The translations under genes and the position numbers were made by a program. A stretch of 64,000 nt of DNA from NCBI RefSeq assembly GCF_001509555.1, contig NZ_LMAS01000003.1, positions 249,100 to 313,099 on the forward strand. The letters are read 5' to 3'. Below, in pieces: positions 4,329 to 54,282 of the stretch. The notes beneath the pieces are model-generated. The model did no database searches and was not told where the DNA came from. It saw only the letters and a list, made by a program, of their open reading frames with translations. Position 1 is the stretch's first letter. The number at the start of each line of letters is the position of its first letter. Origin of the DNA: Bacillus sp. FJAT-29937. GTDB taxonomy: Bacteria > Bacillota > Bacilli > Bacillales > Cytobacillaceae.

Positions 4329-4464
4329 AGTCCTCAATATAAGAAAATAAAAAGCTCAACAAAAGCTAAGCAAACACTTTAGTTGATAAATTAATTTCTT
4401 AAAACAGTTTTTTTTAACCTTAAAGTTCAATGGTTTAAAGCAGTGAAAAATCATAATGAGTTAA

Positions 4465-35227: not shown

Positions 35228-35247
35228 ATTGATATTAATAAATGAAC

Positions 35248-35530
35248 AGCGTAGATAGGGAAGAGTACGATGGCTATTTGCTTTTAGAGAGGAAAACTAT
35301 TAGCTGAAAGGTTTTCTAAGCAGATCCGTTGGAAGGTCGCCCTTGAGCTTCTTTCGCGAAAGGATGCAAATTCGAGTAGTGGAAGACGGGAAATCCGTTA
35401 TCTAGTTAAGAGTCAATCAATTATAGATTGCGGGCGTTAAGTCGTCCCTGCTTTTCTATTTTCGGTTGAAAAAAAGGTGGTACCGCGAAGCAAACTCCAT
35501 TCGTCCTTTTATGACGAATGGGGTTTTTTG
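35248..35530 (+). promoter_or_regulatory. T-box leader of valS (predicted Val specifier GTC)
   Basis: The leader begins with the conserved GATAGGGAAGAGTA element (about 35253-35266). GTC at 35336-35338 occupies the specifier position (GGTCGCC). The T-box AAGGTGGTACCGCG is at 35474-35487. The terminator pairs 35494-35505 with 35513-35524 (12 bp, one T.G) and ends in TTTTTTG. It senses uncharged tRNA-Val, which fits the valyl-tRNA synthetase gene downstream. Confidence 0.92.
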
Positions 35531-38217: not shown

Positions 38218-38225
38218 ATTTGGTT

Positions 38226-38253
38226 GAAGGCGAATCCATATGGGTTCGTCTTC
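38226..38253 (+). terminator. Hairpin after valS
   Basis: GAAGGCGAATCC (38226-38237) pairs over 12 bp with GGGTTCGTCTTC (38242-38253), two G.T pairs and an ATAT loop. The following T content is weak (CTCTTG), so folC may receive read-through. Confidence 0.65.
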
Positions 38254-38306
38254 CTCTTGCTATTAAAAAATTACATAATATAACGTCATTTTTGGAGGCA
38301 GTAATC

Positions 38307-39614
38307 ATGTTTACAACTTATGAAGAGGCTGTTTCTTGGATTCACTCTAGGCTAAGGCTTGGAGTCAAGCCAGGGCTCAAAAGAATGGAATGGATGATGG
38401 AAAAACTGGATCACCCCGAGAGAAGGGTAAAATCGGTGCATATAGGTGGAACGAACGGCAAGGGGTCAACGGTTACTTATCTGCGCTCAATACTCCAGGA
38501 TGCAGGTTATGCTGTCGGGACGTTCACTTCTCCTTATTTCGAACAATTTAATGAACGAATATCGATCAATGGAATACCGGTAAGCGATGATGAAATTATT
38601 AGATTGGCTAATGATATCTACCCCCTTTCACTTGAATTAGAGGAAACAGAGCTCGGCGGTCCAACCGAATTTGAAATTATTACCGCTATGGCTTTACAAT
38701 ATTTTGGACGTGTAAATCCCGTTGACATTGTGCTTTTTGAAGTAGGCCTTGGCGGCAGATTTGATTCAACCAACATAATTTTGCCGATCCTTTCCATTAT
38801 CACGAATATCGGTCTTGACCATACTGGCATTCTCGGCGACACACATGCAGAGATTGCTTTTGAAAAGGCTGGTATTATTAAACCAGGTGTAAGTGTAATC
38901 ACAGCTGTTAAACAGGAGGAAGCTCTACAAGTAATCCTTGAAAAAGCAGGAGAACTGAATGCTCCAATCTATTCACTAGGAAACGAAATAGTCATTCGAG
39001 AGCACACATCAACCGAAATTGGAGAAGTATTTACGCAAAAAACACCGTTTAAAGAATGGGAAAATCTCGAAATATCAATGGCAGGTAAACATCAGACAGA
39101 AAATGCGGCATTAGCCGTTATGGCAGCAGAAGTATTAAATAAGTTTTATTCCTTTTTAATTGAGGACGAGCATCTTTATAGCGGGTTAAAAAAGGCTTAT
39201 TGGCCAGGAAGATTCGAAATGATGTCTAAAGACCCAGTGGTTGTCATTGATGGCGCCCATAATGAGGAAGGGATTACTGCATTTATACATGAGTTGAAAA
39301 ATCGCTTTAGCGACAAAAAAATAAACCTCATCTTTACAGCCCTTGCAGACAAAAAACTAGATAAAATGATTGAGAATTTAGATGCAATCGCTGACAAAAT
39401 TACCTTTGTTGAATTTGACTATCCACGTGCGGCTAAAGCAAAGGACTTATTTGAACTAAGCGGAAATATAAATAAGCATTTTAACCCTGATTGGAAAAAA
39501 GCCATTGAAGAAAATATCAGACCACTGCAAGAAAGTGAAATACTTGCAATAACAGGCTCTCTATACTTTTTATCGGAAATGAAGCCTTATCTAGCAAAAA
39601 TGTTAAAGAAATGA
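38307..39614 (+). CDS. folC: Folylpolyglutamate synthase / dihydrofolate synthase
   Basis: 435 residues from the ATG at 38307, with GGAGG at 38294-38298; the frame is open further back to 38220 through the valS hairpin. It is a Mur-ligase-type enzyme with P-loop 'GGTNGKGSTVTYL', the omega-loop 'TSPYFEQFNERI' and 'VVIDGAHN' in the C-terminal domain. It adds glutamates to folates. B. subtilis has folC in the same place, followed by comC. Confidence 0.95.
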   Translation: MFTTYEEAVSWIHSRLRLGVKPGLKRMEWMMEKLDHPERRVKSVHIGGTNGKGSTVTYLRSILQDAGYAVGTFTSPYFEQFNERISINGIPVSDDEIIRLANDIYPLSLELEETELGGPTEFEIITAMALQYFGRVNPVDIVLFEVGLGGRFDSTNIILPILSIITNIGLDHTGILGDTHAEIAFEKAGIIKPGVSVITAVKQEEALQVILEKAGELNAPIYSLGNEIVIREHTSTEIGEVFTQKTPFKEWENLEISMAGKHQTENAALAVMAAEVLNKFYSFLIEDEHLYSGLKKAYWPGRFEMMSKDPVVVIDGAHNEEGITAFIHELKNRFSDKKINLIFTALADKKLDKMIENLDAIADKITFVEFDYPRAAKAKDLFELSGNINKHFNPDWKKAIEENIRPLQESEILAITGSLYFLSEMKPYLAKMLKK

Positions 39615-39692
39615 TATGTGACATTATTTTGAAAATTTGATAAGATGGTCTTGTTACTATTTTCCTATAAATGTTTGCGAGGAGGGGCGAAA

Positions 39693-41408
39693 ATGATAAG
39701 TGCTATTAAGAAAAAGGTAATTTGGGGGCTATGGGTCCTTATTTTCCCACCAAGCTTATGGCTAATCTATCAGTTATACCCTCCTCATATAACTGTAGCC
39801 GAAATTGACATTTTTGTTTTCCTAATTCTTGCGCTCTTTGTAGCAGCAACCCCAATGATAATAAACGGAACACCTATTTTCCTATTACAGTGGGTTGCCT
39901 GGGCTTTATTTTTAACTTTTGGCTTGTTTATTGAATTGATTATCGTTCAGTTAACGTTAATCGCCTTATTTATAAGAGTTAAATTAACAAAAGAACAAAT
40001 TTTTCGGCTTCCCCTAAACTCACTTATGTTTTTGTTCGTTTCCTTCCTGAGCGGTACAATTTATTACAAGCTTGGCGGCAGCCCTGGTGCAAGATTAGCG
40101 GAAATGGATCATTCTTTTTGGCTGATTCCTATTTATCCGATTCTCTATTATATATTTAATCATTTCTTTATTTGGATCATTAATATGGTTCTTTATAATG
40201 GGAAACGAGAGACATTTGGCATTGATTTTATTTGGGAAACTGTAACGACAATTATTACTTTCCCAATGGGTTTTGTTCTTTTCATTCTATACAAAGAATT
40301 GGGTCTCGTTGCCCTTATTTTTGTCGGAATTCCATTTGCGAGCCTTTCTATTATATTGAATTTGTATTATTCTAGCAGAAAAATCAATGAATTATTGCAA
40401 AACGCGACAGAAATCGGCCACCAGCTCGCTGAGAGTTTAAATGTAGATGAGGTCCTCGATTTATTTATACAGAAGCTGACCGAAATGCTGCCTGTTGATT
40501 ATGCTTATATTCTCGATATTATTGATAATGAGGAACTACAAATTATTCGCCAGGTTGAAAAGGGAGAAATAAAATCTTCAAAAATAGAACCGCTACGGAA
40601 AAGCGAAGGGATTAGCGGTCTTGTTTGGCAACAGAAGAAAGCAGCACTTTTCAACTCTCAAAAAGAATGGAAGAATATCGTGAAAGGCTATATGCCTGAT
40701 AAGGTCGAAAGCGTTTTAAGTATGCCGATTGTCCGCAATAGTGAGGCCATCGGGGTACTTTTTCTAGCATCTTCTCAGAAAAGGGCCTATGAAAAATCCC
40801 AGCTCATGATCGTCGATATCCTATGCTCCCACTTTGCTATTGCAATCGAAAATGCTAGAAACTATGAAAAAACAAAAGCACAAAGCGAACGCTGTGCCTT
40901 AACAAAGCTATACAATTACCGTTACTTTGAAAATCGTCTAAGCTTTGAGTGCGAAAAATTAAAAAATCAGGAAAGAGAAGTAATCTCTCTAATTATTCTA
41001 GATATTGATCATTTCAAGTCGGTTAACGATATGTATGGTCATCAAAGCGGGAATGAAATTCTATATCAGCTTGCTAATCTTCTAACAGACTTAATAGGGC
41101 AAAAAGGCACAATTGCACGATACGGGGGAGAAGAGTTCGTGATCCTTCTTCCAAATATAGAAAAAAGCAATGCTGTCAAAATAGCTGAACAGGTTAGACA
41201 AAAAATCGCAGACTACATTTTCACACTCGAACACCATATCGGGAAAAACGAACAAATCCAGCAAGTCCATATCACAGCATCCATCGGAGTCGCCGCTGCC
41301 CCTCATGACGCAGACGAACCCCTCGCACTCATTCGCCACGCCGACCGGGCCCTATATGTCGGTGCAAAACGAGCGGGGAGGAATCGAGTGGCGGAGTATG
41401 TGAAATAG
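39693..41408 (+). CDS. Membrane GAF-GGDEF diguanylate cyclase
   Basis: 571 residues from the ATG at 39693, which has AGGAGGGG upstream. About seven membrane helices (residues 9-230) form a sensor region, then a GAF domain (about 242-389), then a GGDEF domain (about 399-571). The catalytic signature is 'RYGGEEF' (about 475-481) and the metal/nucleotide loop is 'DIDHFKSVND', so it is predicted to be active in making c-di-GMP. The inhibitory RxxD site is absent (GQKG at that position), suggesting no classical product inhibition. It lies just before the pilus locus. The input signal is unknown. Confidence 0.9.
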   Translation: MISAIKKKVIWGLWVLIFPPSLWLIYQLYPPHITVAEIDIFVFLILALFVAATPMIINGTPIFLLQWVAWALFLTFGLFIELIIVQLTLIALFIRVKLTKEQIFRLPLNSLMFLFVSFLSGTIYYKLGGSPGARLAEMDHSFWLIPIYPILYYIFNHFFIWIINMVLYNGKRETFGIDFIWETVTTIITFPMGFVLFILYKELGLVALIFVGIPFASLSIILNLYYSSRKINELLQNATEIGHQLAESLNVDEVLDLFIQKLTEMLPVDYAYILDIIDNEELQIIRQVEKGEIKSSKIEPLRKSEGISGLVWQQKKAALFNSQKEWKNIVKGYMPDKVESVLSMPIVRNSEAIGVLFLASSQKRAYEKSQLMIVDILCSHFAIAIENARNYEKTKAQSERCALTKLYNYRYFENRLSFECEKLKNQEREVISLIILDIDHFKSVNDMYGHQSGNEILYQLANLLTDLIGQKGTIARYGGEEFVILLPNIEKSNAVKIAEQVRQKIADYIFTLEHHIGKNEQIQQVHITASIGVAAAPHDADEPLALIRHADRALYVGAKRAGRNRVAEYVK

Positions 41409-41410
41409 TT

Positions 41411-41440
41411 AAGACCCCCAAGGTTTTTGGGGGTCTTTCT
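41411..41440 (+). terminator. Intrinsic terminator of the cyclase gene
   Basis: AAGACCCCCAA (41411-41421) pairs perfectly with TTGGGGGTCTT (41427-41437), followed by TTTCTATTT. Confidence 0.9.
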
Positions 41441-41480
41441 ATTTACGCTATTAAATATAAGGAATGCACTTTTATCGGTT

Positions 41481-41917
41481 CATGGTGCGTGTTTTGTGGT
41501 GTCTTTTGGTGAAAGGATGACTATGAAGCGTTCATGGTGCGCGTTTTGAGGAATCTTCATTCGAAACGAGGACTATGAAGTGTTCATGGAGCGTGTTTTG
41601 AGTGATCTTCATACAAAACGATGACTATGAAGCGTTCATGGTGCGTGTTTCGAGGGGTCTTCGTTCAAAACGAAGACTATGAAGTGTTCATGGAGCGTGT
41701 TTTGGGGAAACTTCAATCAAAACGATGACTATGAAGCGTTCATAGTGCGTGTTATGAGGAATCTTCATTCAAAATGATGACTATGAAGTGTTCATGGAGC
41801 GTGTTATGAGGAATCTTCATTCAAAATGATGACTATGAAGTGTTCATGGAGCGCGTTTTTGGGAAACTTCAATCAAAACGATGACTATAAAGTGTTCATG
41901 GAGCGCGTTTTGAGGAG
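41481..41917. repeat. 52-bp tandem array, eight full units and a partial ninth
   Basis: Units begin (CATGG or CATAG) at 41481, 41533, 41585, 41637, 41689, 41741, 41793 and 41845, each exactly 52 bases apart, with a partial unit from 41897. The consensus includes GCGYGTTTTGAGGAATCTTC, then TTCAAAACGATGACTATGAAG. Most units contain an inverted repeat GTTTTGA/TCAAAAC around the CTTCA core. Units vary between TGCG and AGCG after CATGG. The period is not a multiple of three and stops are frequent, so it is not coding. It fills the gap between the cyclase and the minor-pilin operon. Confidence 0.97.
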
Positions 41918-41950
41918 GAATCAGGTAGATGAGTATGAGAAATAGGAAAA

Positions 41951-41971
41951 CCCCCAACAAAATTTTGGGGG
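41951..41971 (-). terminator. Terminator of the minus-strand minor-pilin operon
   Basis: CCCCCAA (41951-41957) pairs with TTGGGGG (41965-41971). On the minus strand the hairpin is followed by TTTTCCTATTT, downstream of the 42077 stop. Confidence 0.7.
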
Positions 41972-42076
41972 GGCTTATCTCTTTTATAAGGTAATTAGGA
42001 AATGATAGTATTCAAAATCAAAAAATAAACTTCTTACCGATATACGCATAGGTGATATCGGCTTTACTATATTGTA

Positions 42077-43285
42077 TTAGTAATATTCTGCTTCAATATT
42101 AGGGTGTACTAACCAATTGTAAAGACCGCCTCCAATAGGCTCAGAAGTACGTAAACAGTTCTTATTAAATGCATCATACCCGGTATCCTCTGGTAAATAA
42201 GGTGACCATTGATTGTTTTTCCACAAATAAATGTCACCCTTTACACAAACCGAAGCTTTATTTTTTACATTAGTTATTTGCTTTTTAAAATATGCATTTT
42301 GTTGAATGGTGATTTCTGCGTGGGTATCAATAACCTCAATTTGACTATCAAATAGGGCATTGCCTCCAACATTTAAAACAGATTTTGTCCCAAAATTAAC
42401 TCTGCCCATAGCCATAAAATTCCCATCAACATTTATGATATTGTGATTATCAGTGTGTAAGGCTCCGCCAATAAATAAATCATTTTCTACATCCAAAATT
42501 GAGGTATTACTCCCCGCAGTTTTCATTCCAAGACTTCCATTAATTATCAAATTATTGTTAAAAGCCCAGTTTGACTTTTTCTGTATATCAACTGAACCTA
42601 ATAACTCGACAAAGGCATCAGTGCTGAATGGGTTTTTGTTTGTCTGTGAATACACAACGCTGACATTCTTTAGATTCTTAATATCATCAAGGGTTAAGAT
42701 TTGGGTTTTACTGCCAGAGAATGTAGGTTTCTTTGGAACTTGTTCGAATGGATCAAGTTTAATATTATCATTACCATTACCATTGTTTAATGGTGCAATT
42801 GTTATGGTTGCATCAATTACAGCATCACTATTATCTTTCTCCTTTATGGATCCATTGCTAGTGACAAAAAGCACAATTTCATTTTTATCTAAATTACACC
42901 CTCCATTAATATCCTTTGTTGAATAACTGCCAGTTTCAAGTGGAGGTGACAGAACACTAACACTGAATTTGCTCACTTTGCTATACAAATTGTTACAATA
43001 TGCTATTCTAGAAGCTTCTTGATCTATTATTTTTTTATCTTTGTCTTTATACTTTAAATAGTTATTTGGATCTGCATTAAATACCATTACTCTTTGATCA
43101 ATCAAGGTTTTATAATGCAAAACCCCCATTTCAGCCAAGTGCCTTGCTTGAACATTTTCTTCCTTTTTATTAAATTGTTTGGTGGATGAAAGATTCATCG
43201 ACAGCATAGTTAACCCTATTGTTGTAAAAAGGATCATTAACAATAAGACAGTAGGAAGTGCCCCTCCCTTTTCATTATGAAACAT
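42077..43285 (-). CDS. Large PilX-like pilin with beta-helix-like C-terminus
   Basis: 402 residues from the ATG at 43285, preceded by AGAGGTGG. The N-terminus 'NEKGGALPTVLLLMILFTTIGL' is a PilX/GspK-like hydrophobic helix, with a Gly-Gly-Ala cleavage-like site but no Glu at +5. The C-terminal 200 residues have short repeating strands ('NLIINGSLGMKT', 'NVDGNFMAMGRV', 'NVGGNALFDSQIEV', 'VCVKGDIYLW') suggesting a right-handed beta-helix or bactofilin-like stack. Several cysteines could form disulfides. It is the last gene of a three-gene minus-strand minor-pilin operon. A pilus-tip or initiation role is inferred, not shown. Confidence 0.7.
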   Translation of the reverse strand: MFHNEKGGALPTVLLLMILFTTIGLTMLSMNLSSTKQFNKKEENVQARHLAEMGVLHYKTLIDQRVMVFNADPNNYLKYKDKDKKIIDQEASRIAYCNNLYSKVSKFSVSVLSPPLETGSYSTKDINGGCNLDKNEIVLFVTSNGSIKEKDNSDAVIDATITIAPLNNGNGNDNIKLDPFEQVPKKPTFSGSKTQILTLDDIKNLKNVSVVYSQTNKNPFSTDAFVELLGSVDIQKKSNWAFNNNLIINGSLGMKTAGSNTSILDVENDLFIGGALHTDNHNIINVDGNFMAMGRVNFGTKSVLNVGGNALFDSQIEVIDTHAEITIQQNAYFKKQITNVKNKASVCVKGDIYLWKNNQWSPYLPEDTGYDAFNKNCLRTSEPIGGGLYNWLVHPNIEAEYY

Positions 43286-43299
43286 CTTTATTCCACCTC

Positions 43300-43695
43300 T
43301 CAATTTAACTTACTGAATGTTGTTTCGACAGTATATGTTAATCCATCTTTTTCTAGCTCTAAATAGAAGTGAACTGGATTGCTTTTTCTTGAAACATTAA
43401 GGACTATATAGTTAAATCCTTCTGATATGACCTTTCCATCCATTTTTAATATATTGTCTTGAACAGAAAGTTTGATAGGGTTACTCATTTTTCCTTCATC
43501 GTACTTTCTCAAGTATTCTCTTCGGACTATTTCGGTAATATAGTTAGCTTCTTGTTGCAGCAGTTGATTTGTAGTATTTCGGTTATATGCTTTTTTTCCA
43601 TCTATTAAAATACTGCTAAGTAATGTAATGATCAAAGCTAGGATAGTGATGGTAGCTAATAGTTCAACTAAAGTAAAACCACGCTGATTATTCAT
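43300..43695 (-). CDS. Type IV minor prepilin (PilW/ComGF-like)
   Basis: 131 residues. A type III signal 'MNNQRGFTLVELLATITIL' has a prepilin peptidase site after Gly6 and Glu at +5 of the mature protein. The remainder is a short globular domain without a recognised fold. It overlaps the preceding prepilin gene by four bases and is followed by the larger pilin, so the three are probably translated from one message. Confidence 0.85.
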   Translation of the reverse strand: MNNQRGFTLVELLATITILALIITLLSSILIDGKKAYNRNTTNQLLQQEANYITEIVRREYLRKYDEGKMSNPIKLSVQDNILKMDGKVISEGFNYIVLNVSRKSNPVHFYLELEKDGLTYTVETTFSKLN

Positions 43696-44105
43696 GTTGT
43701 TTCCTCCTCTTTTATGTACATTTCAGTTGTAAAAAAGGAATCAGCGATATTACTTTGTGGAATTGACGTTACATCGATCTTTATCCTTCTTAATTTAGAA
43801 GAAATAATTTCTTTTATCTCAATTTTAACTTTATATTCAGCATATGTTGTATCGTTTACATAAAAAACACCATTCTCTAGCCTATAACCCTTTTGTAACA
43901 GTTGTTTGTAAGACGATAAATTTCGAATGTCTCCTACTACTTTTTCGCCAACATCAATAGCAGTTAACTTTTCTTTGTTATAATGGGTAAACTTGGCGGA
44001 CTGAATAAAAATTGTAAAAAATGTTATTAGTACTATTGATAAAAGTGTTATAGCTACCAAAATTTCAATAAGAGTTAATCCTTTTTCATTTTTCAAAAAC
44101 CTCAT
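43692..44105 (-). CDS. Type IV minor prepilin
   Basis: 137 residues from the ATG at 44105, with GGGGG about 8 bases upstream. The leader 'MRFLKNEKGLTLIEILVAITLL' has a Gly9-Leu processing site and Glu at +5. It is the first gene of the minus-strand minor-pilin operon, divergent from the main pil operon. A compact T4 pilin fold is expected; the exact minor-pilin class (PilV/PilE/GspI-like) is not resolved. Confidence 0.85.
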   Translation of the reverse strand: MRFLKNEKGLTLIEILVAITLLSIVLITFFTIFIQSAKFTHYNKEKLTAIDVGEKVVGDIRNLSSYKQLLQKGYRLENGVFYVNDTTYAEYKVKIEIKEIISSKLRRIKIDVTSIPQSNIADSFFTTEMYIKEEETT

Positions 44106-44345
44106 GCTTTTATCCCCCATTAAAACCAAAATTCATAGTGTAGTAAATTTTGATTAAAAAACTACAAAATCAACCATATTCCAGTATTGAGCTCTTTCCA
44201 TACAATTAACTTTATTATACAATATGAATCATTCAAGATAAGTTTTTATTTAGGTCTATTATAGTAGTTTTTGATAATCTGTAACATTTTTCCTAAGGTT
44301 TTTGTGATAAATTCGAATTATAATTTTCTATGGGGGGGTTGAGGA

Positions 44346-45173
44346 ATGATAACTATTATATTTTCGATAGTTTCACTGGTTATTCTTACGCCCGTTCTGC
44401 TTTTCATGCCGATTGGAATTTCAAATAAGTGGAAAATCTGTTTGGTTGGAGTTGCTTTCTTACTAGCAAATATAGGACTTATGGCTAACATGCAAATTCC
44501 ATTTTATCAAGCAATATTGATTATTGTTCTACTTTGTGGATTAATTGCCCTTTTGTTAGAGAAAAGAGTAGTGGCAATTCCTCAATCCAAAGTAGAATCT
44601 GAATCGATACATAAGAAAATCATTTCTATTGAAAAAGAAACTGTACATAGTGAAAATGAGAAACTAAACATAATCATTGAAAAAGAAAATTTAACAACTG
44701 TGATAAGTGAAGTAGCTGTAAGTAGCGAGATCTCTCAAGAAGATGATGATTTAATAAAATTGGCATATTCTATCGACAAGCAAGACGAAGCCGCAGAGGA
44801 AATTAAAATAGGTGTACATAAAAAGTTTGAAACTGAAAAAACGGAAAATCCTTTGGACTTCGACGAGGATGTATCATTTCTAGAAAATCGGGTGGCAGCA
44901 ATCACCATTAAAGGAGAAGTGGGTAGTACGGATCTTCAGGAGAATCATTCCGAAAAAGCTTATATGTCCGAAATTGAGAGATTACTCGATGGAAATGACA
45001 TAGGGGATGGAACAGAAAAGATGCCTAATACAATTACGCCTATTTCTCAACCTGTAATGGAAGAGCTAGAGGAAATTGTGTTTACAAAAGAACTTCAAAT
45101 AAAAGAAGATAATAAGAAATCAAAAGATTTGAATGAAGAAATCGAAATTGAAGAACTAATTTTTCATAAATAA
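44346..45173 (+). CDS. Unknown membrane protein heading the pil operon
   Basis: 275 residues. Three hydrophobic segments (about residues 3-24, 30-47 and 52-71) are followed by about 200 acidic, probably cytoplasmic, residues rich in Glu, Lys and Ile and predicted to be mostly helical or disordered. GGGGGGTTGAGGA precedes the ATG and a TATAAT box lies at 44319-44324 without a clear -35. I do not recognise the family. Its position suggests a pilus-assembly accessory role, which is a guess from context. Confidence 0.65.
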   Translation: MITIIFSIVSLVILTPVLLFMPIGISNKWKICLVGVAFLLANIGLMANMQIPFYQAILIIVLLCGLIALLLEKRVVAIPQSKVESESIHKKIISIEKETVHSENEKLNIIIEKENLTTVISEVAVSSEISQEDDDLIKLAYSIDKQDEAAEEIKIGVHKKFETEKTENPLDFDEDVSFLENRVAAITIKGEVGSTDLQENHSEKAYMSEIERLLDGNDIGDGTEKMPNTITPISQPVMEELEEIVFTKELQIKEDNKKSKDLNEEIEIEELIFHK

Positions 45174-45202
45174 GTAAGCATCATTGAAAGGGAGTCGGCT
45201 AG

Positions 45203-46528
45203 GTGAAAAACAAGCAGGGAGTTAAAATTTTTATTGTGCTTTTTCTTTGTACTTTTTTTATCTTCGCCTTCTCGCATTATGGTGCTTCGGCCTTCAATTC
45301 GATAATCAAAAATGGAGACATTTTTGGTGAGAATACGATGGTTGGAAATGTTAACATTTCGGGTAAAAATGAATTAGAGGCGATAAGAGCAGTAGATGAG
45401 CAGTTAACCCTTTGGTTAGATGAAATGGTAATAAATATTCATTTTAAAGAAAAACAGATTCAGTTAGACAATGCTTTGATTCGGTTTAATGTGACGGAAT
45501 CCGTTAAAACTGCACAACATGGACAGAGGAATATGGTGATTGTCCATTTTGAAGAGAACACACTAGAAGAATCCATCTTGAATTCATACCCGACAATAGA
45601 TTCCCAGACTATTAATTTTGAGAAATTACAAACGGATTTGTTAAATAGTGCTGCACAATTACAATCTGAACAACTTGAATTAAAACTAGAAGACTATCTG
45701 ACTAGTTCAACTTTCAATGAAGATGTTGTGCTTCATGAAGTTCAAGTTAAAACAGATGACGTTCAGTTAAGCAGTATAATTGATAAACCTATTGAGATTC
45801 CAGCCAATAGTAGGTTCTCTTTGCTCAAGTTAATTGAAGAAAAAGGGCTTAACGATGTGTCTGAAGAGGCTCTAAATGCCATAGCTTCTGGCATATACCA
45901 ATTAATTTTGCCGACTAACTTTGCAATTATTGAAAGAAATATTGGGAATGAAAAGCCTGATTTCATTCCATTAGGTTTTGAAGCAAAAATAGATTTACAA
46001 AAAAATATGGATCTGATTTTTGCTAATCCAAATAAAATACCATACGAAATTAATATGGAGTTTTTTGACAATACATTAATCTTTTCACTTAAAGGGAAAT
46101 CTTTTTTACATACGTATGAGGTTGTTTCAAAGGATGAACAAAGCTTTAAACCGAAGATTATAAAACAGTATAATTCTTTGTTGGAACCTGGTGAAAAAGT
46201 GGTTGAAAGGCAAGGAAAGGAAGGCTTGTTTATTAAAGTTTTTCGAGCGATTTATGATGAAAAAGGCGCATTTTTAAGGAGTGAAGCTATTTCAGAAGAT
46301 TTCTATCCTCCTATTCATCAAATTGAAGTGAATGGTCTCATTAATAACGCCGAAGTTGAAGCTGACATTCAAGAAGAGACAGGTTCGGAAAATGCTGAGT
46401 CGCTAGATAATAATCAACAGAGTAATAATAGCAATTCGACAAGTTCTGAGACGGATGAAGAGGCAATTGGAGGAGTGCTTGAATCGAATAGTGATCTCTG
46501 GGGCAAGCCCATTGAGCAAATGAAATAA
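45203..46528 (+). CDS. VanW-like/G5-like exported protein
   Basis: 441 residues, GTG start with AAGGGAG upstream. One N-terminal membrane anchor (about 8-28) is followed by an extracellular region. Residues about 195-310 resemble a VanW domain ('IPANSRFSLLKLI...FAIIERNIG...FIPLGFEAKID...NPNKIPYEI'), but the usual Gly-Gly-Gly-Ile-Cys-Gln core is changed to 'ASGIYQLIL', losing the Cys. Residues about 320-380 are G5-like ('LLEPGEKVVERQGKEGLFIKVFR'). The tail is Ser/Asn/Glu rich. VanW function is unknown; a cell-wall or pilus-passage role is inferred. Confidence 0.7.
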   Translation: MKNKQGVKIFIVLFLCTFFIFAFSHYGASAFNSIIKNGDIFGENTMVGNVNISGKNELEAIRAVDEQLTLWLDEMVINIHFKEKQIQLDNALIRFNVTESVKTAQHGQRNMVIVHFEENTLEESILNSYPTIDSQTINFEKLQTDLLNSAAQLQSEQLELKLEDYLTSSTFNEDVVLHEVQVKTDDVQLSSIIDKPIEIPANSRFSLLKLIEEKGLNDVSEEALNAIASGIYQLILPTNFAIIERNIGNEKPDFIPLGFEAKIDLQKNMDLIFANPNKIPYEINMEFFDNTLIFSLKGKSFLHTYEVVSKDEQSFKPKIIKQYNSLLEPGEKVVERQGKEGLFIKVFRAIYDEKGAFLRSEAISEDFYPPIHQIEVNGLINNAEVEADIQEETGSENAESLDNNQQSNNSNSTSSETDEEAIGGVLESNSDLWGKPIEQMK

Positions 46529-46550
46529 TCATATAAAGCAGGGATAGTAC

Positions 46551-48209
46551 ATGAAACAAAATCGGCAGCGGCTTGGTGATTTACTTGTAAATGCTGGCCT
46601 TATTACAGAAGAGCAGCTTGTAGTAACATTAAAGGAAAAGAGCGATGGGCAAAAGCTTGGTGATGCTCTTCTTCAAAGGGGATATATTACAGAACAGCAG
46701 CTTATTGAAGTACTTGAATTCCAGCTTGGCATTCCACATATAAGCCTGTATCGATATCCATTTGATACAAAGCTATTCAATATTATTCCAAAAGAGATAG
46801 CAAAGCGTCAGCTCTTAATTCCTATGAAAAGAGACGGGGACAAGCTATTCGTCGCTATGGCAGATCCAATGGACTTTTTTGCGATTGATGATTTACGTCT
46901 ATCAACAGGATTCCAAATAGAGACGGCTATTGCAACGAAAGATGATATTTTAAGAGCGATAAACAAGTATTATGACATCGATGAGGGCTTTGAAGAATTA
47001 CTGGGTGAGGATACGCAAACGGAGACAGTTCAAGAAGAAATAACTGATCAGGATTCACCCATTGTAAAATTAGTGAACCAAATTTTATCAAATGCTGTTA
47101 CGATGAAAGCTAGTGATATTCACATTGACCCACAGGAAACGAAAGTTGTTGTTCGTTATAGAATTGATGGGGTCCTTAGAGTAGAACGGGTTCTACCAAA
47201 GCACATGCAGGGTGTTCTTATTGCCAGAATCAAAATACTCGCAAACCTAGATATTACAGAGCACCGAATTCCGCAGGACGGAAGAATTAAAGTAAACCTT
47301 GACTTTCATCCTGTTGATTTACGTGTTTCCACTTTGCCTACTGTATTTGGCGAAAAAGTGGTTATGCGGATTCTCGATTTAGGCAGCTCTTTAAATGATA
47401 TAAACAAGCTAGGTTTCAATAAATTAAATTTAAAGCGATTTAAAGACATGATCGAAAGGCCAACGGGAATTGTTCTGTTAACAGGCCCTACAGGTTCTGG
47501 GAAATCATCGACTTTATATGCGGCATTAAACCAGTTAAACAGTGAAGAAGTGAATATTATTACGATTGAAGATCCGGTTGAGTACCAACTTGAAGGCATT
47601 AATCAAATTCAAGTAAATTCCAATATCGGGATGACATTTGCGGCAGGCTTGCGCTCTATTCTTCGTCAAGACCCTAATATCATTATGGTCGGTGAGATTC
47701 GGGATAAGGAAACAGTTGAAGTCGCTATCAGGGCGTCTTTGACAGGACATTTAGTATTAAGTACTTTACATACAAATGACTCCATCGGGACCATTACAAG
47801 ACTGATGGATATGGGGGTTGAGCCTTTCCTAGTTGCCTCCTCTTTAAGCGGAATTGTCGCCCAGCGTCTCGTAAGGCGGATATGCAGAGACTGCTCAGAA
47901 GAACATGTTCCATCTAAGCGTGAGGTTGAAATCTTTGCAAAAAGAGGCATGAACATTGAAAAAGTAACTCGTGGACGCGGATGTTCATCTTGTAATATGA
48001 CGGGTTATAAAGGGAGGCTTGCGATTCATGAAGTTCTTGTCGTAAATGATGACATAAGAAGAATGATTATGAATGGCGAATCTATTTCAAGATTAAGAGA
48101 GTTAGCGATCCAAAATAAAACCATTTTCCTTATTGATGATGGTTTATTAAAGGTGAAACAAGGGGTAACAACAACAGAAGAAGTTCTAAGAGTCGCAATA
48201 CTTGAATAG
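46551..48209 (+). CDS. pilB: Type IV pilus extension ATPase PilB with MshEN domain
   Basis: 552 residues. The N-terminal domain (about residues 4-150) carries two tandem MshEN-type motifs: 'RLGDLLVNAGLITEEQL' at 5-21 and 'KLGDALLQRGYITEQQL' at 33-49, the pattern that binds c-di-GMP in MshE. The ATPase has Walker A 'GPTGSGKSST' (about 312), an Asp box, Walker B 'IIMVGEIRD' (about 376), a His box 'LSTLHTND' (about 401) and a four-cysteine zinc site (CRDC about 445, CSSC about 474). It powers pilus extension at the inner face of the membrane. Confidence 0.95.
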   Translation: MKQNRQRLGDLLVNAGLITEEQLVVTLKEKSDGQKLGDALLQRGYITEQQLIEVLEFQLGIPHISLYRYPFDTKLFNIIPKEIAKRQLLIPMKRDGDKLFVAMADPMDFFAIDDLRLSTGFQIETAIATKDDILRAINKYYDIDEGFEELLGEDTQTETVQEEITDQDSPIVKLVNQILSNAVTMKASDIHIDPQETKVVVRYRIDGVLRVERVLPKHMQGVLIARIKILANLDITEHRIPQDGRIKVNLDFHPVDLRVSTLPTVFGEKVVMRILDLGSSLNDINKLGFNKLNLKRFKDMIERPTGIVLLTGPTGSGKSSTLYAALNQLNSEEVNIITIEDPVEYQLEGINQIQVNSNIGMTFAAGLRSILRQDPNIIMVGEIRDKETVEVAIRASLTGHLVLSTLHTNDSIGTITRLMDMGVEPFLVASSLSGIVAQRLVRRICRDCSEEHVPSKREVEIFAKRGMNIEKVTRGRGCSSCNMTGYKGRLAIHEVLVVNDDIRRMIMNGESISRLRELAIQNKTIFLIDDGLLKVKQGVTTTEEVLRVAILE

Positions 48210-48220
48210 GGGTGCGAAAG

Positions 48221-49261
48221 ATGAAGGAAAAAATAGATTATTTATTACGCGCCGCATTTGAATTAAAAGCATCAGATTTACATTTAACTGTAGGCATACA
48301 GCCAGTCCTTAGAATCAATGGGGATTTAAAAAAATATGGGAAGGACACATTAAAGCCTGAGGAAACTGAGGGGATGGCACGTGCGATTGTCCCAGAACAT
48401 ATGTGGGAGCAATTCAAGGAAAAAGGCGAATTGGATTTTTCCTACGGCATTCCCGGTGTTTCCAGATTCCGTGTAAATACATATCAACAGAGGTCGTGTA
48501 TTGCATTGGCGATTCGTGTCGTGCCAACAAGAATCCCGACAATTGATGAACTGGAGCTGCCGAATATTTTACGGAAAATTTCCGAAAAGCCACAGGGCCT
48601 TGTTCTTGTCACAGGACCAACAGGGAGCGGAAAGTCAACGACTCTTGCTTCAATGATCCAATATATGAATGAAACGATGCGTAAGCATATTATTACACTT
48701 GAGGATCCGATTGAGTATTTGCACAAGCATGGGAACTCGATTATTGATCAGCGGGAGGTTGGCTTTGATACGAGAAATTTTGCCAACGGTTTGAGGGCTG
48801 CCTTGCGTCAGGACCCAGACATTATTTTAGTCGGTGAGATGCGTGATTTGGAAACAATTCAAACCGCGATTACCGCTGCGGAAACTGGACATTTAGTTTT
48901 GGGTACTTTACATACATCAAGCGCTCCTGCAACGATTAATCGGATTATTGACGTATTTCCTCCAGCACAGCAGCCGCAAATTCGAATTCAGCTAGCTTCT
49001 GTTTTAGTGGGAATTGTTTCGCAGCGTCTTTTTCAGAGGGAAGATAGAAAAGGCCGGAAAGCAGCGACTGAAATTCTCATAAACAATTCAGCTGTTGCCA
49101 ACCTAATACGAAATGAAAAAATTCATCAAATCATTAGTATCATGCAAACTTCACGGGCGCAAGGGATGCATACGCTTGAGGCGAGTATTAAAGATCTTAT
49201 TCAATCCGGCATAATCTCAAAGGATGCGGCCGAACCATTTTTACAGGAGCTGCTAGTTTAA
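48221..49261 (+). CDS. pilT: Type IV pilus retraction ATPase PilT
   Basis: 346 residues from the ATG at 48221, with ATAGGGGTG upstream; a GTG at 48212 overlaps that site. It has the PilT signature 'ASDLHLTVG' at the N-terminus, Walker A 'GPTGSGKSTT' (about 131-140), Walker B 'IILVGEMRD' and a His box 'LGTLHTSSA'. No zinc cluster is present, as expected for PilT. Its presence implies retractile pili capable of twitching or DNA uptake. Confidence 0.96.
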   Translation: MKEKIDYLLRAAFELKASDLHLTVGIQPVLRINGDLKKYGKDTLKPEETEGMARAIVPEHMWEQFKEKGELDFSYGIPGVSRFRVNTYQQRSCIALAIRVVPTRIPTIDELELPNILRKISEKPQGLVLVTGPTGSGKSTTLASMIQYMNETMRKHIITLEDPIEYLHKHGNSIIDQREVGFDTRNFANGLRAALRQDPDIILVGEMRDLETIQTAITAAETGHLVLGTLHTSSAPATINRIIDVFPPAQQPQIRIQLASVLVGIVSQRLFQREDRKGRKAATEILINNSAVANLIRNEKIHQIISIMQTSRAQGMHTLEASIKDLIQSGIISKDAAEPFLQELLV

Positions 49262-49262
49262 T

Positions 49263-50468
49263 ATGGCACGGTTTAAATATTCCGGCAGAGACCGAAAAGG
49301 GAAAGTAGAAGGAGTCATAAATTCCACATCCAAACGGGAAGCAATGTTTAAGCTTCGAGAGGATGGCATCAGAATTCTTGAAATAACAGAGGTGCCTGAA
49401 TCCATTTTTACAAAGGATATCTCTATTGGAAATCCCGTGAAGCTTCAGCATTTTGTCATTTATCTTCGACAGTTTTCTACCCTTTTAAAGGCAGGAGTTT
49501 CAGTAGTAGACTCTACGAAAATACTATCAGCTCAAACAGAGAGTAAAGCATTGAAAAAAGCTTTACTTGATATTGAACAGGATTTACGTGAAGGAAATCC
49601 TTTGTCAGATGCAGCTGCAAAACATAAGGAAATCTTTACACCAATGTTTATTAATATGGTTCGAGCCGGTGAAGCTGGCGGGAATATGGATGAAACATTG
49701 GACCGGCTAGCTGAGCATTATGAAAAGCAGCATGGCACACGGCAGAAAATTAAATCCGCACTTGCTTATCCAATAGTTGTTGGTATTGTAGCAATTGGAG
49801 TAGTTATTTTCCTATTAGTATCCGTTGTTCCTACGTTTGTCGCCATGTTCGAAGATTTTGGCGGGGAACTGCCTGCAATAACGAAGTTTGTTTTAAGTTC
49901 AAGTGAGTTTATGCAGAGGTATTGGTGGTTAATCGTTCTGTTTTTCTTTGCACTAGCCATTAGTATTGTTATGCTTAGAAAAAATCCGCAGACAAAATAC
50001 TATTTGGATTACTTTATCCTGCGAATTCCTATATTCGGTAAAATGCTGCAAAAGGCAGTCCTTGCTAGAATGACAAGGACGCTTAGTTCATTATTTACTA
50101 GTTCAGTGCCCATATTGCAAGCTATGACGATTGTCGAAAGAGTTGTAGAGAATGAGGTAATTGCCAAGGTTATTCGTGAGTCTAGAAACTCTCTTGAAAG
50201 GGGGCGATCACTAACTGAACCGATGAAAAAACACTGGGCCTTTCCTCCTCTAGTAACACAAATGATTGTGATCGGGGAAGAAACAGGATCACTAGATGCT
50301 ATGCTTGGAAAAGTAGCTGATTTCTATGAAAAAGAGGTAGAAAACAGTACGGATAGAATTAAATCTCTTATTGAACCGTTAATGATTGTCTTCCTTGCTG
50401 GCATTGTCGGAACAATTGTGACTTCTATTATGGTACCAATGTTTGAAATCTTTAACCAGGTTGGATAA
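49263..50468 (+). CDS. pilC: Type IV pilus inner-membrane platform protein PilC
   Basis: 401 residues with two T2SSF domains (about 65-190 and 270-395). Both carry the conserved helical pattern ('FVIYLRQFSTLLKAGVSV', 'MARMTRTLSS...VPILQAM', 'MIVIGEETGSLDAML') and three membrane helices (about 165-190, 215-240 and 370-395). It is the platform on which PilB and PilT act. It begins one base after pilT. Confidence 0.95.
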   Translation: MARFKYSGRDRKGKVEGVINSTSKREAMFKLREDGIRILEITEVPESIFTKDISIGNPVKLQHFVIYLRQFSTLLKAGVSVVDSTKILSAQTESKALKKALLDIEQDLREGNPLSDAAAKHKEIFTPMFINMVRAGEAGGNMDETLDRLAEHYEKQHGTRQKIKSALAYPIVVGIVAIGVVIFLLVSVVPTFVAMFEDFGGELPAITKFVLSSSEFMQRYWWLIVLFFFALAISIVMLRKNPQTKYYLDYFILRIPIFGKMLQKAVLARMTRTLSSLFTSSVPILQAMTIVERVVENEVIAKVIRESRNSLERGRSLTEPMKKHWAFPPLVTQMIVIGEETGSLDAMLGKVADFYEKEVENSTDRIKSLIEPLMIVFLAGIVGTIVTSIMVPMFEIFNQVG

Positions 50469-50574
50469 TGTTTGCAATTTATTAACATTTTTATCTATTA
50501 TTTTATTTAGTTTCTAGTATAATTATAGATAGGTATTAAGTCTTAATTTATTCTTATTTGAGAGGAAGGTTTGT

Positions 50575-51003
50575 ATGTTAAAAATGATTGGAAAAAAACT
50601 GAAAAATCAGCGTGGGTTGACGTTGGTTGAGTTATTGGCTGTTGTCGTTATTTTGGGTATTATTGCCGCAATTGCGGTGCCAAGCATAGGCGGAATTATT
50701 CAGAAGTCAAAAGAGGATGCAGTAAAGGCTGAGGCTGTGCAGGTATTGAATGCTGCAAAATTATTTAGTGCTTCTACTCAAGTTACAGCTTCAACAACAT
50801 TAACTAATACTAGCACTCCTAATCTAAATCAGTATTTGGATAATCCCGGAACCTATTCTATTACAATAGCTCCTGGAACTGATGGGAAAATCACCTATTC
50901 TAATGTGAATGTTGATAAAAAAGGAATTAAATTTATATTCTCTACAGAGGCCGATGTAATTTCTGGAAGTGGTACTAAAGGAACAGCTACAACAACCCCT
51001 TAA
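50575..51003 (+). CDS. pilA: Major type IV pilin PilA
   Basis: 142 residues. The prepilin leader 'MLKMIGKKLKNQRGLTLVEL' is cleaved after Gly14, giving a mature start LTLVE with Glu5, followed by the canonical helix 'VVVILGIIAAIAVPSI'. The short C-terminal globular part is rich in Thr and Ser and lacks cysteines. GAGAGGAAGG precedes the ATG. A TATAAT box in the 106-base gap after pilC may provide an extra promoter for this abundant product. Confidence 0.92.
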   Translation: MLKMIGKKLKNQRGLTLVELLAVVVILGIIAAIAVPSIGGIIQKSKEDAVKAEAVQVLNAAKLFSASTQVTASTTLTNTSTPNLNQYLDNPGTYSITIAPGTDGKITYSNVNVDKKGIKFIFSTEADVISGSGTKGTATTTP

Positions 51004-51029
51004 GGTAAAAATAATTAAGGAGTAACACA

Positions 51030-51779
51030 TTGATAATCACATTTATTTTTATATATGGTATATGTTTAGGCTCCTTCTTCAACGTAGTCGGCCTCCGCGT
51101 CCCACAAAACCAATCCATTGTGGCACCGCGGTCAGCCTGTCCAAAATGCAAACATCAGCTCACTCCATTTGAGCTGATTCCCGTCCTATCCTATTTATTT
51201 CAAGGGGGAAAATGCCGCCAATGCAAGGTGCGCATTTCTCCTATTTATCCATTCATGGAGCTGCTCACAGGATTGCTGTTTGCGGCAGCCCCATTAGTAT
51301 TAGGCTGGACAAGCGAGCTGTTTGTCGCTTGGACGTTAATCTCATTATTTATGATAATTACTGTTTCTGATATCACGTATATGATCATCCCTGATAAAGT
51401 GTTGCTCGTGTTTATGGGGATTTTTTTATTGGAACGGGCTCTTATACCTCTTGATCCAGGGTGGGATTCCCTCCTAGGGGCAGCTGTAGGTTTTTTCCTT
51501 CTGCTTTTGATTGCAATTATTAGTAAAGGAGGAATGGGCGGAGGGGATATTAAGCTCTTTGCTTTGTTAGGACTAGTGGTTGGTACGAAAATCGTTCTGT
51601 TATCTTTCTTTCTCGCAACTTTGTACGGAGCGGTCTTTGGTATAATTGGGTTATTAACCGGAAAGCTGAAAAGGAAAAATCCAATTCCATTTGGTCCATT
51701 TATTGCTGCAGGAACACTGACTGCTTATTTTTATGGAGATATTATCATCCGAAGCTACTTTACGTTTTTGGCATCTTGA
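51030..51779 (+). CDS. pilD: Prepilin peptidase/N-methyltransferase PilD (ComC family)
   Basis: 249 residues from a TTG start with TAAGGAG upstream. The N-terminal methyltransferase region has paired CxxC motifs ('CPKCKH', 'CRQCKV'). The aspartyl peptidase core has 'VSDITYMIIPD' and 'GMGGGDIKLF', with the two catalytic aspartates in membrane loops, and there are about seven to eight membrane segments. It processes PilA and the minor prepilins. In B. subtilis the matching chromosomal slot holds comC alone. Confidence 0.95.
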   Translation: MIITFIFIYGICLGSFFNVVGLRVPQNQSIVAPRSACPKCKHQLTPFELIPVLSYLFQGGKCRQCKVRISPIYPFMELLTGLLFAAAPLVLGWTSELFVAWTLISLFMIITVSDITYMIIPDKVLLVFMGIFLLERALIPLDPGWDSLLGAAVGFFLLLLIAIISKGGMGGGDIKLFALLGLVVGTKIVLLSFFLATLYGAVFGIIGLLTGKLKRKNPIPFGPFIAAGTLTAYFYGDIIIRSYFTFLAS

Positions 51780-51800
51780 ATTTAGTAAGGGGTTTAATCA

Positions 51801-52778
51801 ATGGCATTTTCCGTATTTTCTCGAAAAAACCGCATCATCAATTTGGTGATTAATGACTATTCAATTCGGTTTGTTGAATTGAAGAACACGAATCCGCTTA
51901 GCATCTATAGATGGGGTCAGCGGTTTATTCCGTTTGGGATCGTTCGGGATGGAAAAATCATTGATCATGGCACATTGGAAACGATTCTGGAAGAATGTAT
52001 TACTGATTGGAAGATTCCGAAACGTTCTGTCCGATTCATCGTACCTGATTCGTTCGTTATAATCCGGAAAGCCAGTATTCCTGCAGATGTGAAAGATGAT
52101 GAAATCAATGGCTATTTATATTTGGAGCTCGGCAGCAGTATTCATCTTCCATTTGAGGAGCCTGTCTTTGATACGTATACAATAAATCAAGAGAAGGATA
52201 AAAAAGAAATTTTAATATTTGCGGCTCAAGAAGAAAATGTTATGGAATGCGCGAATTTATTATCAAGTGTGAAGCTTGTTCCTTCGGCTGCGGATATTTC
52301 TTCGTTGTCTCTCTATCGGCTATATCATCAGTTGGACATGCAAGATCAGGATGAACGGCTACTAATGATTCAATTTGATCTGAATATGGTCAATCTTTGT
52401 ATTTTTGAAAACCAATTCCCGCTATTTATGCATCATTTATTAATTGATTTTGATGATGATCTTTGGTCTGTTAAATCTAGCAGCAAAGAGAATCAAGAGT
52501 TTCAATTCAGTGGAAGTCAAACGGATTTGCTCTTTCAATTGGAGGATATTTTTAAGGAGATTGGGAAGTTTCTTGATTTCTATCGATATTCGATTCACCA
52601 AGGAAAACAGCAAATATCCAAGATCCTGTTAAATGGAGATCACCCTTATCTTGATCTAATTGAAAAGGAAATAGAAGCAAGATTTGATATCCCACATCAA
52701 ACTATTCATTTAGCAACAGAAGATAATCTACCAAGATCACATTATCTTACTCTGGGGCTTGCATTGAAAGAGGTGTAA
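51801..52778 (+). CDS. pilM: Type IV pilus assembly actin-like protein PilM
   Basis: 325 residues with the PilM/FtsA-like ASKHA layout: 'INLVINDYSIRFVELK' at the N-terminus, 'IPADVKDDEINGYLYLELGSSIHLPFEEPVFD' near residue 90 and a late 'ILLNGDHPYL' block. It is cytoplasmic and expected to bind the PilN N-terminus. The nucleotide-binding glycines are less regular than in Gram-negative PilM. Confidence 0.88.
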   Translation: MAFSVFSRKNRIINLVINDYSIRFVELKNTNPLSIYRWGQRFIPFGIVRDGKIIDHGTLETILEECITDWKIPKRSVRFIVPDSFVIIRKASIPADVKDDEINGYLYLELGSSIHLPFEEPVFDTYTINQEKDKKEILIFAAQEENVMECANLLSSVKLVPSAADISSLSLYRLYHQLDMQDQDERLLMIQFDLNMVNLCIFENQFPLFMHHLLIDFDDDLWSVKSSSKENQEFQFSGSQTDLLFQLEDIFKEIGKFLDFYRYSIHQGKQQISKILLNGDHPYLDLIEKEIEARFDIPHQTIHLATEDNLPRSHYLTLGLALKEV

Positions 52779-52780
52779 GC

Positions 52781-53404
52781 ATGCTCGTTGAGATTAACCT
52801 ACTCCCCAAAAAAGAATCACGGAAAACATCTCTTTACATGCTTATCGGTGCATTCACTCTTATTTTGCTAATCGGTGTTGGTATAACAGTCTGGATTGGG
52901 CAAGGCTATAAGGAGAAAATTGAATCTGTTACAAAGCAGCAGACTGCTACTCAGGAATTAATTGCCACAGAGCAGGAGGAAATTGCCAATGCAGAATCGT
53001 TAAACTCAATAGAAGAGCTGAAAAAAGCTGTAGCCTGGGCTGAAGACTATCTGATAAAAACAGTACCGATTTTGAGACAGTTTACTGCGTTACTTCCTGA
53101 ACGTGGTTTTGTGCAAACCCTTAGCTATGAGGAAACAGGCAATATTGTTATCACGGTACAATTTGATACGAGTCGAGAAGCCTCTTATTATTTAAAATCG
53201 ATGCTAGATTCTGAATGGATAGAAGACGCAATGATCAATTCGTTAACAACGAATGTGCTGGCAGAGGAAAAAAAGGTCGAAGCTGCAAGTATAGAGTCTG
53301 AACAGCAGAAAATCCTCCCTCGTTATTTGGCGGAATATGAGGTTATATTAAACCGTTCATTTATAAAACAAGAGGCTGACAGCAAAGGAGGGGAAGAATC
53401 ATGA
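52781..53404 (+). CDS. pilN: Type IV pilus assembly protein PilN
   Basis: 207 residues. It starts 'MLVEINLLPKKESRK', matching the PilM-binding INLLP motif of PilN proteins, followed by one membrane helix (about residues 18-41) and a coiled-coil plus ferredoxin-like extracellular part. It overlaps pilO by four bases. Confidence 0.92.
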   Translation: MLVEINLLPKKESRKTSLYMLIGAFTLILLIGVGITVWIGQGYKEKIESVTKQQTATQELIATEQEEIANAESLNSIEELKKAVAWAEDYLIKTVPILRQFTALLPERGFVQTLSYEETGNIVITVQFDTSREASYYLKSMLDSEWIEDAMINSLTTNVLAEEKKVEAASIESEQQKILPRYLAEYEVILNRSFIKQEADSKGGEES

Positions 53405-54174
53405 CCCTTCTATCTTCTAAAAAAGGAAAGCTGTATTCGATTATTGGAATCATGAATATTATTTTGTTATTTATAGGGCTTTACTTTCTATATATCCAAC
53501 CATTAAAGTCGACTTTGGCTAATAAGCAACGGGAACTGCAAACGGAAGAACAGCTCCTCGCGGTTATTGAAAGTCAGATTCATGATACTGGATCTGATTC
53601 GTTAGAAGGAACAGAAGAACTACAAAAGAAACTGCCGGTTAAACCGTTAGTCGAGCAGCTGATGCTTGATATTGAGCAGGCGGAAGTCGTGTCTGGAAGT
53701 CTAGTGACTAATATGGAATTTTCGATGGGTGAGATAGAAGAAGATACAACGGAGGAACAGCTAGAGATAGATTTAGAAGAGTCACCGGCAGATGAACAGG
53801 CAGAAAATACATCGAACATTCCTATGCCTGTAGGAATGAAAAAAACGACAGTTGTGTTAACAGTGAATTCCTCTAACTATTTTGAAATGGAAAAGTTCAT
53901 TGATTCTATAGAATCGGAAAATCGGATCATCCTAGTCGAAAATCTGCAAATTGAAGGCCAAGAAGAGGTCGTTTCAACTGATCAAGAGAAGCAGCTTATT
54001 GTGTCTGAAATAACAATCTCGGCCTTTTATATGCCAGCACTGACAGACTTGATTGACCAGCTTCCGAAGATGGCCGTCCCGAAAACTGTCGAAAAGAAAA
54101 ATCCATTTAGTATGTCCGGCAATATTTCCGAACCATCAGAGAAAGTACCAGGAGACCAAACTCAAGACTATTAA
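53401..54174 (+). CDS. pilO: Type IV pilus assembly protein PilO
   Basis: 257 residues. A short cytoplasmic N-terminus is followed by one membrane helix (about 11-32), a coiled coil with 'LANKQRELQTEEQLLAVIE', an acidic linker, and a PilO-like domain ending in 'NPFSMSGN'. It partners PilN in the alignment complex. It is the last pil gene, and a strong terminator follows. Confidence 0.85.
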   Translation: MTLLSSKKGKLYSIIGIMNIILLFIGLYFLYIQPLKSTLANKQRELQTEEQLLAVIESQIHDTGSDSLEGTEELQKKLPVKPLVEQLMLDIEQAEVVSGSLVTNMEFSMGEIEEDTTEEQLEIDLEESPADEQAENTSNIPMPVGMKKTTVVLTVNSSNYFEMEKFIDSIESENRIILVENLQIEGQEEVVSTDQEKQLIVSEITISAFYMPALTDLIDQLPKMAVPKTVEKKNPFSMSGNISEPSEKVPGDQTQDY

Positions 54175-54196
54175 AAAATTTGACGAAAATCCAACG

Positions 54197-54232
54197 TAAC
54201 AAGACGACAAAAGTCTTGTTATTTTTTTTTTT
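54197..54232 (+). terminator. Intrinsic terminator of the pil operon
   Basis: AACAAGAC (54198-54205) pairs perfectly with GTCTTGTT (54213-54220), extendable by one T-A pair, followed by a run of ten T residues. Confidence 0.93.
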
Positions 54233-54282
54233 CGATATGTTAGGATGAAACATAATCATCAATCGACATGGAAGGAGGACGA

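Follow-up and report, generated by a model that had tools for sequence, protein, structure and literature searches.

A type IVa pilus locus in the folC-spoIIB interval of Bacillus sp. FJAT-29937 suggests that comC is a pilD gene retained after pilus loss

The interval between folC and spoIIB in Bacillus sp. FJAT-29937 holds a set of type IV pilus (T4P) genes around the prepilin peptidase gene pilD, and it raises the question of how such a locus relates to comC, the competence peptidase gene: is comC the relic of a full pilus locus, or were pilus genes gained around it? We analysed a window of 64,000 nucleotides (contig NZ_LMAS01000003.1, positions 249,100 to 313,099), which is part of a 760 kb contig in a genome of 4.55 Mb. 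We consider it quite probable that the pilus locus is intact and mostly vertically inherited, and that comC is the pilD gene left after pilus loss, shared by the Pil and ComG machines. The landmarks and core genes are as follows, in window coordinates (pil+ loci are defined below):

38220..39614, plus strand: folC, left landmark (TIGR01499, E 6.9e-122)
46551..48209, plus strand: pilB, extension ATPase with an N-terminal MshEN domain of the cyclic di-GMP (c-di-GMP) type (TIGR02538, E 2.4e-187, 624 bits, below the cut-off of 675.65)
48212..49261, plus strand: pilT, retraction ATPase (TIGR01420, E 4e-145, 483 bits, above the cut-off of 319)
49263..50468, plus strand: pilC, platform protein (TIGR02120, E 9.4e-117, below cut-off; T2SSF, E 8.4e-67)
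50575..51003, plus strand: pilA, major pilin, sitting between pilC and pilD (N_methyl, E 3.5e-8)
51030..51779, plus strand: pilD, that is comC (A24_N, E 1.3e-32; Peptidase_A24, E 1.2e-18)
51801..52778, plus strand: pilM (PilM_2, PF11104, E 1.3e-17)
52781..53404, plus strand: pilN (PilN, E 0.022, weak by Pfam; assigned also by position and by relatives in 98 of 99 pil+ loci)
53401..54174, plus strand: pilO (T2SSM, E 2.6e-5; PilO, E 0.021, weak by Pfam; relatives in 99 of 99 pil+ loci)
54268..55362, plus strand: SPOR-domain protein in the spoIIB position, right landmark (SPOR, E 7.8e-5)

The pilus locus spans 42077-54174 with open frames throughout, and lies between folC and a diguanylate cyclase (DGC) gene on one side and the SPOR-domain gene on the other, 3' of which come genes read as maf, radC and mreB. 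It is built of two divergent units, a minus-strand unit with three minor pilin genes (44129 down to 42077) and a plus-strand unit (44346-54174) in the order orf275, VanW/G5 gene, pilB, pilT, pilC, pilA, pilD, pilM, pilN and pilO. PilB, PilT and PilC match their family models nearly end to end. The genes expected of a type IVa system were found, namely PilB, PilC, a prepilin and an A24 peptidase, together with PilT and a PilM-PilN-PilO set in which PilN and PilO match weakly and gene order is conserved. Judged by its gene content, this is an intact monoderm type IVa pilus locus. No secretin gene was present among the open reading frames (ORFs) read at 39.6-54.2 kb (the rest of the genome was not searched for secretins). 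A first-pass annotation had already placed the pil genes between folC and spoIIB, and family-model matches recovered every one of them there, open and in place; its gene list had nonetheless overlooked the membrane protein gene at 44346-45173, the VanW/G5 gene at 45203-46528 and the c-di-GMP-type domain of PilB. In the predicted machine PilB would extend the pilus, and we infer from the family match that PilT retracts it; PilC, PilM, PilN and PilO would form the base, PilA the fibre, and the three minor pilins would probably sit at its tip.

Is pilD, then, the comC of this genome? The window genome yielded one A24_N match at E<=10, namely pilD itself, and the separate true comC that the first-pass annotation had allowed for elsewhere did not appear, there being no second A24_N-type comC in the genome. 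Across the order Bacillales, one A24_N-type prepilin peptidase gene was found in 392 of the 397 genomes surveyed, two in 2 and none in 3. ComGA scored above its cut-off in 77 of 81 genomes and also in the window genome, where it is followed by comGB to comGG (identified by eye) with no peptidase alongside. Because this lone A24_N peptidase occurs in the same genome as a comG operon, PilD should serve both machines, maturing the Pil and the ComG pilins alike. By its single copy, its place in the folC-spoIIB slot and the lack of a clade apart from the ComC of unpiliated relatives, pilD is to all appearances the same gene as Bacillus comC; its closest named relatives are in Robertmurraya siralis and Bacillus methanolicus (both 73%), which would put the genome in the Bacillaceae. 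The window genome also carries Tad-type genes (G000:C6:18008-21373, L005), comprising an ATPase and, by eye, TadB-like and TadZ-like genes, so that it may combine filament systems of the com, pil and tad types.

Our PilT survey covered an even sample of 397 genomes across the order, plus 14 control genomes including B. subtilis. The PilT family was present in 261 of the 397 genomes and in 101 of 129 genera, so the window locus is not unusual; it is common in the order, in which pil operons have been on record since 2011 (PMC3244431). B. subtilis, included as a control only, gave no PilT-family match at E<=1e-80, and the peptidase domain was present. Gene order was compared in 59 regions of ~20 kb around pilD, 80 named loci (the best by similarity to the window PilD) and the window, together 136 distinct loci. 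Scoring a locus as pilus-positive (pil+) when it had at least three of full-length pilB, pilT, pilC and pilM, we counted 99 pil+ loci and 37 others, the latter including L155 and L187, whose contigs are cut, and L118, a partial locus. A landmark of the slot (folC, spoIIB or maf) is visible in 85 of the 99 pil+ loci. Pilus-minus (pil-) loci mostly read folC-comC-spoIIB or folC-DGC-comC-spoIIB, and in others comC lies elsewhere. Both states occur within the window's genus, where a full locus (L061) and a bare folC-DGC-comC-spoIIB slot in which comC is flanked by gaps of 270 bp and 240 bp (L060) are sisters in the PilD tree (SH-like approximate likelihood ratio test, SH-aLRT, 99). The Paenibacillaceae locus L193 keeps the order pilA-pilD-pilM with no folC or spoIIB nearby, and thus the place of pilD within the operon is independent of the slot. 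In two Siminovitchia genomes (L137, L138) the slot contains, next to comC, a large gene in antisense orientation (1032 and 1031 aa). A record titled Pseudomonas sp. ISL-84 (L131) is probably misnamed, since its folC-DGC-comC-spoIIB slot is of the Bacillus type and it groups near the window.

The comparison of pilus loss and gain used the 88 loci (61 pil+, 27 pil-) in which Maf and RadC were present. First, pil+ and pil- peptidases interleave, and an approximately unbiased (AU) test rejects a tree with all 61 pil+ peptidases on one side and the 27 pil- on the other (p 1.8e-60); a grouping of PilD away from ComC, which the first-pass annotation had proposed to look for, is therefore not seen. 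Second, the fewest changes on the 88 loci number 16 for the marker tree and the PilD tree alike, and on the midpoint-rooted marker tree a pil+ root gives 0 gains and 16 losses. On a larger PilD tree (134 loci, L118 being unscored), rooted on L193 by choice, a pil+ root gives 23 changes (2 gains, 21 losses); at double gain cost the count is 25 losses, and 46 gains are needed if losses are forbidden. From these costs, losses dominate in every history and a piliated root is mildly favoured. Third, when the window's proteins were used to search 28 pil-minus loci, 3 of them proved to keep pil remnants next to comC. Cytobacillus horneckiae (L122) has a pilC piece and a pilA piece followed by comC, Bacillus sp. 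OV166 (L126) has comC followed by pilM and pilO pieces, and in Parageobacillus caldoxylosilyticus (L151) a pilB piece runs into a pilC piece as one ORF, with no pilT gene. Lastly, the distances of pil and marker proteins correlate at 0.69, compared with at most 0.40 in 1000 permutations, and 34 of 85 splits are common to the PilD and marker trees. The fragments, the gene order of L193 and the parsimony costs together support the option, raised in the first-pass annotation, that comC is what remains of a full pilus locus. As reconstructed from these trees and gene orders, the ancestor of the order probably had pili, and many lineages would have dropped the pilus genes but retained pilD, since the nearly universal comG machine needs a peptidase; pilus loss around a retained pilD would leave folC-comC-spoIIB.

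One alternative concerns the control of the pilus and involves the DGC gene, listed here with two terminator-like sites:

39645..41408, plus strand: DGC with a membrane N-terminus (by eye), a GAF domain (GAF_2, E 6.9e-14) and a GGDEF domain (PF00990, E 9.7e-41; GGEEF by eye)
41411..41437, plus strand: terminator-like hairpin after the DGC gene, with a 12-pair stem
54196..54222, plus strand: terminator-like hairpin after pilO and before spoIIB, with a 10-pair stem then a T run

The longest ORF of the DGC begins at 39645, position 39693 being its second in-frame ATG. The hairpin at 54196..54222 would terminate the pil operon ahead of spoIIB, and a third such hairpin follows the last minor pilin gene, although terminator-like sites are not enriched as a class (14 in the region, 11.1 expected from shuffles). 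Residues 7-58 of PilB match the MshE-type c-di-GMP domain (NF053729, E 5.6e-17), followed by PF05157 (E 3.4e-22). MshEN is described as two 24-residue motifs with Arg, Gly, Leu and Gln (PMC5013675); the same paper reports the motif I Gln to be important in MshE, and its relaxed search motif admits Lys at these places. Among 99 PilB proteins of >=450 residues, the first Arg is conserved in 97, the Gly at 9 and 37 in all 99 and the motif II Gln in all 99; Lys takes the place of the motif I Gln in 97 and of the motif II Arg in 90, and the linker has 4 residues in the window's PilB as against 5 in MshE. Binding of c-di-GMP by PilB is plausible, and the nucleotide may control PilB. That the adjacent DGC is the dedicated switch of the pilus, in a local c-di-GMP circuit through this domain, we find rather doubtful. 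Among loci with folC visible, the DGC lies beside folC in 19 of 35 pil+ loci (window included) compared with 6 of 27 pil- loci, an enrichment with a Fisher p of 0.018 uncorrected for kinship. However, the gene is retained without pili in those 6 genomes, is absent beside folC in 16 of the 35 pil+ loci and has a terminator-like site of its own, and the genome holds 11 GGDEF places. A private circuit is accordingly unsupported, and the DGC, which the first-pass annotation had presented as a flank of the pilus locus, is not specific to it: it is a folC neighbour that outlasts pili in some genomes.

A second alternative reverses the history that we propose, with pil genes repeatedly gained by horizontal transfer into folC-comC-spoIIB chromosomes, or with many comings and goings. 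Several points weigh against loss from a piliated ancestor and partly favour such gains. The loci were in part hand-picked to include pil-minus genomes or taken by similarity to the window PilD. PilT presence is patchy (261 of 397), 14 of the 99 pil+ loci are found away from the slot, and the window stands apart from its congeners L061 and L060 in the PilD tree. A pil- root costs the marker tree 17 changes (3 gains, 14 losses), just one more than the 16 losses, and the 134-locus PilD tree 25 (4 gains, 21 losses). When 26 pil- slots were searched with 1079 pil proteins, clear relics emerged only in L122 and L126 (L151 was not among these slots); with so many queries, the weak matches in L122 (pilM, E 8e-4), L137 and L138 are at chance level. 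Eighteen of 39 well-supported splits in the PilB-T-C-M tree conflict with well-supported Maf-RadC-MreB splits, as do 8 of 32 strong PilD splits with the marker tree, which makes some horizontal exchange or weak markers likely, and Maf, RadC and MreB adjoin the locus and hence are not independent markers. A pil operon on a mobile element is moreover described in Paenibacillus thiaminolyticus (PMC9765702). Against this, gains alone would have to number 31 on the 88-locus tree; most of them would have hit this one slot and left the peptidase within the operon. PilD and ComC interleave, and the decaying fragments beside comC in three genomes show loss. The pil tree also has 20 of its 57 splits in common with the marker tree, compared with at most 2 in 200 shuffles. 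On balance we regard repeated gain as unlikely and retain pilus loss around pilD as our reading. That the intact locus serves DNA uptake as a second competence pilus, and not motility or adhesion, is very unlikely, because although retractile pili elsewhere in bacteria take up DNA and the peptidase is probably common to comG and pil, the genome has a comG operon of its own, and comG, unlike pil, is almost universal in the order.

The remaining genes of the locus are the minor pilin genes and the first two of the plus-strand unit:

42077..43303, minus strand: minor pilin, ComGG/PilX-like (ComGG-like NCBIfam model, E 3.3e-5, below cut-off; no Pfam match)
43300..43695, minus strand: minor pilin with a clear prepilin motif (N_methyl, E 8.3e-9)
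43692..44129, minus strand: minor pilin with a clear prepilin motif (N_methyl, E 3.8e-7)
44346..45173, plus strand: orf275, predicted membrane protein with an acidic tail (by eye; no Pfam match)
45203..46528, plus strand: VanW/G5 protein with a membrane helix, a part resembling a peptidoglycan-binding domain, a degenerate VanW domain and a G5 domain

Relatives of orf275 occur in 66 of the 99 pil+ loci and in 0 of the 37 others, and the VanW/G5 gene in 85 and 1, respectively. The VanW/G5 protein is thus pil-linked and, by its predicted helix, membrane-anchored. Its site aligned to the Cys of the GGGICQ motif is Tyr in 47 of 49 proteins and never Cys, while the other VanW protein of the genome (L201) retains GGGICQ. 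We tentatively suggest that it may be a dedicated part of monoderm pili, derived from a VanW domain that lost its Cys, which would act as a membrane-anchored, peptidoglycan-gripping collar or guide letting the pilus through the thick wall, a possible counterpart of the wall and outer-membrane parts of diderm pili. In some relatives a PRC-barrel gene, absent in the window, lies between orf275 and the VanW/G5 gene (L061:7384-8118 by Pfam; L103, L106 and L110 by eye). A large Big_2- or VWA-domain protein is encoded beside the minor pilins, on the window's DGC side, in 7 of 7 relatives scanned (L061, L062, L065, L085, L103, L106, L110), and is a possible pilus adhesin. The minor pilin at 42077..43303 has a C-terminal beta-solenoid (residues about 230-360), called tapirin-like. 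The tapirins of Caldicellulosiruptor bind cellulose and are encoded next to T4P genes, and a Foldseek search gave no significant match. Elsewhere in the window there are two T-box leaders, at 4460-4714 and 35243-35511, the second directly 5' of a gene read as valS.

If the history of loss is true, the textbook competence gene comC is an orphaned pilD, kept by competence after repeated loss of the pilus. About two thirds of the sampled genomes in the order may make retractile, hardly studied pili, one peptidase probably couples piliation with DNA uptake, and the VanW/G5 protein, as a candidate wall component, could account for the passage of monoderm pili across the wall.

The Com pilus of B. 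subtilis is made by the comG operon and comC, with a separate operon that lacks PilT, PilM, PilN and PilO. Its peptidase shares both slot and tree with the window pilD, and the window genome differs in having a comG operon on top of a pil locus. Streptococcus sanguinis, which belongs to another order of Bacilli, offers a more distant comparison. Its Tfp are described as retractable monoderm type IV pili (PMC4832360), as we propose for the window from its genes, and are encoded by a 22 kb, 21-gene pil cluster (PMC5389465). Nearer to the window are the pil operons that Imam 2011 (PMC3244431) lists in Bacillus sp. NRRL B-14911, two Geobacillus and Exiguobacterium, where as in the window a monoderm Bacillales pil operon occurs with a com operon; the same report records pilT in a significant number of the pil operons of Gram-positive bacteria, and com, pil and tad systems together in NRRL B-14911. 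The accessible text of that report, in which folC has 0 occurrences, takes up neither the folC-spoIIB slot nor the VanW/G5 gene, nor the idea of comC as a relic. The T4P operon of P. thiaminolyticus Mbale encodes, like the window, a PilB with an N-terminal MshEN, and its authors expect c-di-GMP control; it differs in lying on a predicted mobile element and in an MshEN motif described as perfectly conserved, where the window has Lys in place of the motif I Gln (PMC9765702).

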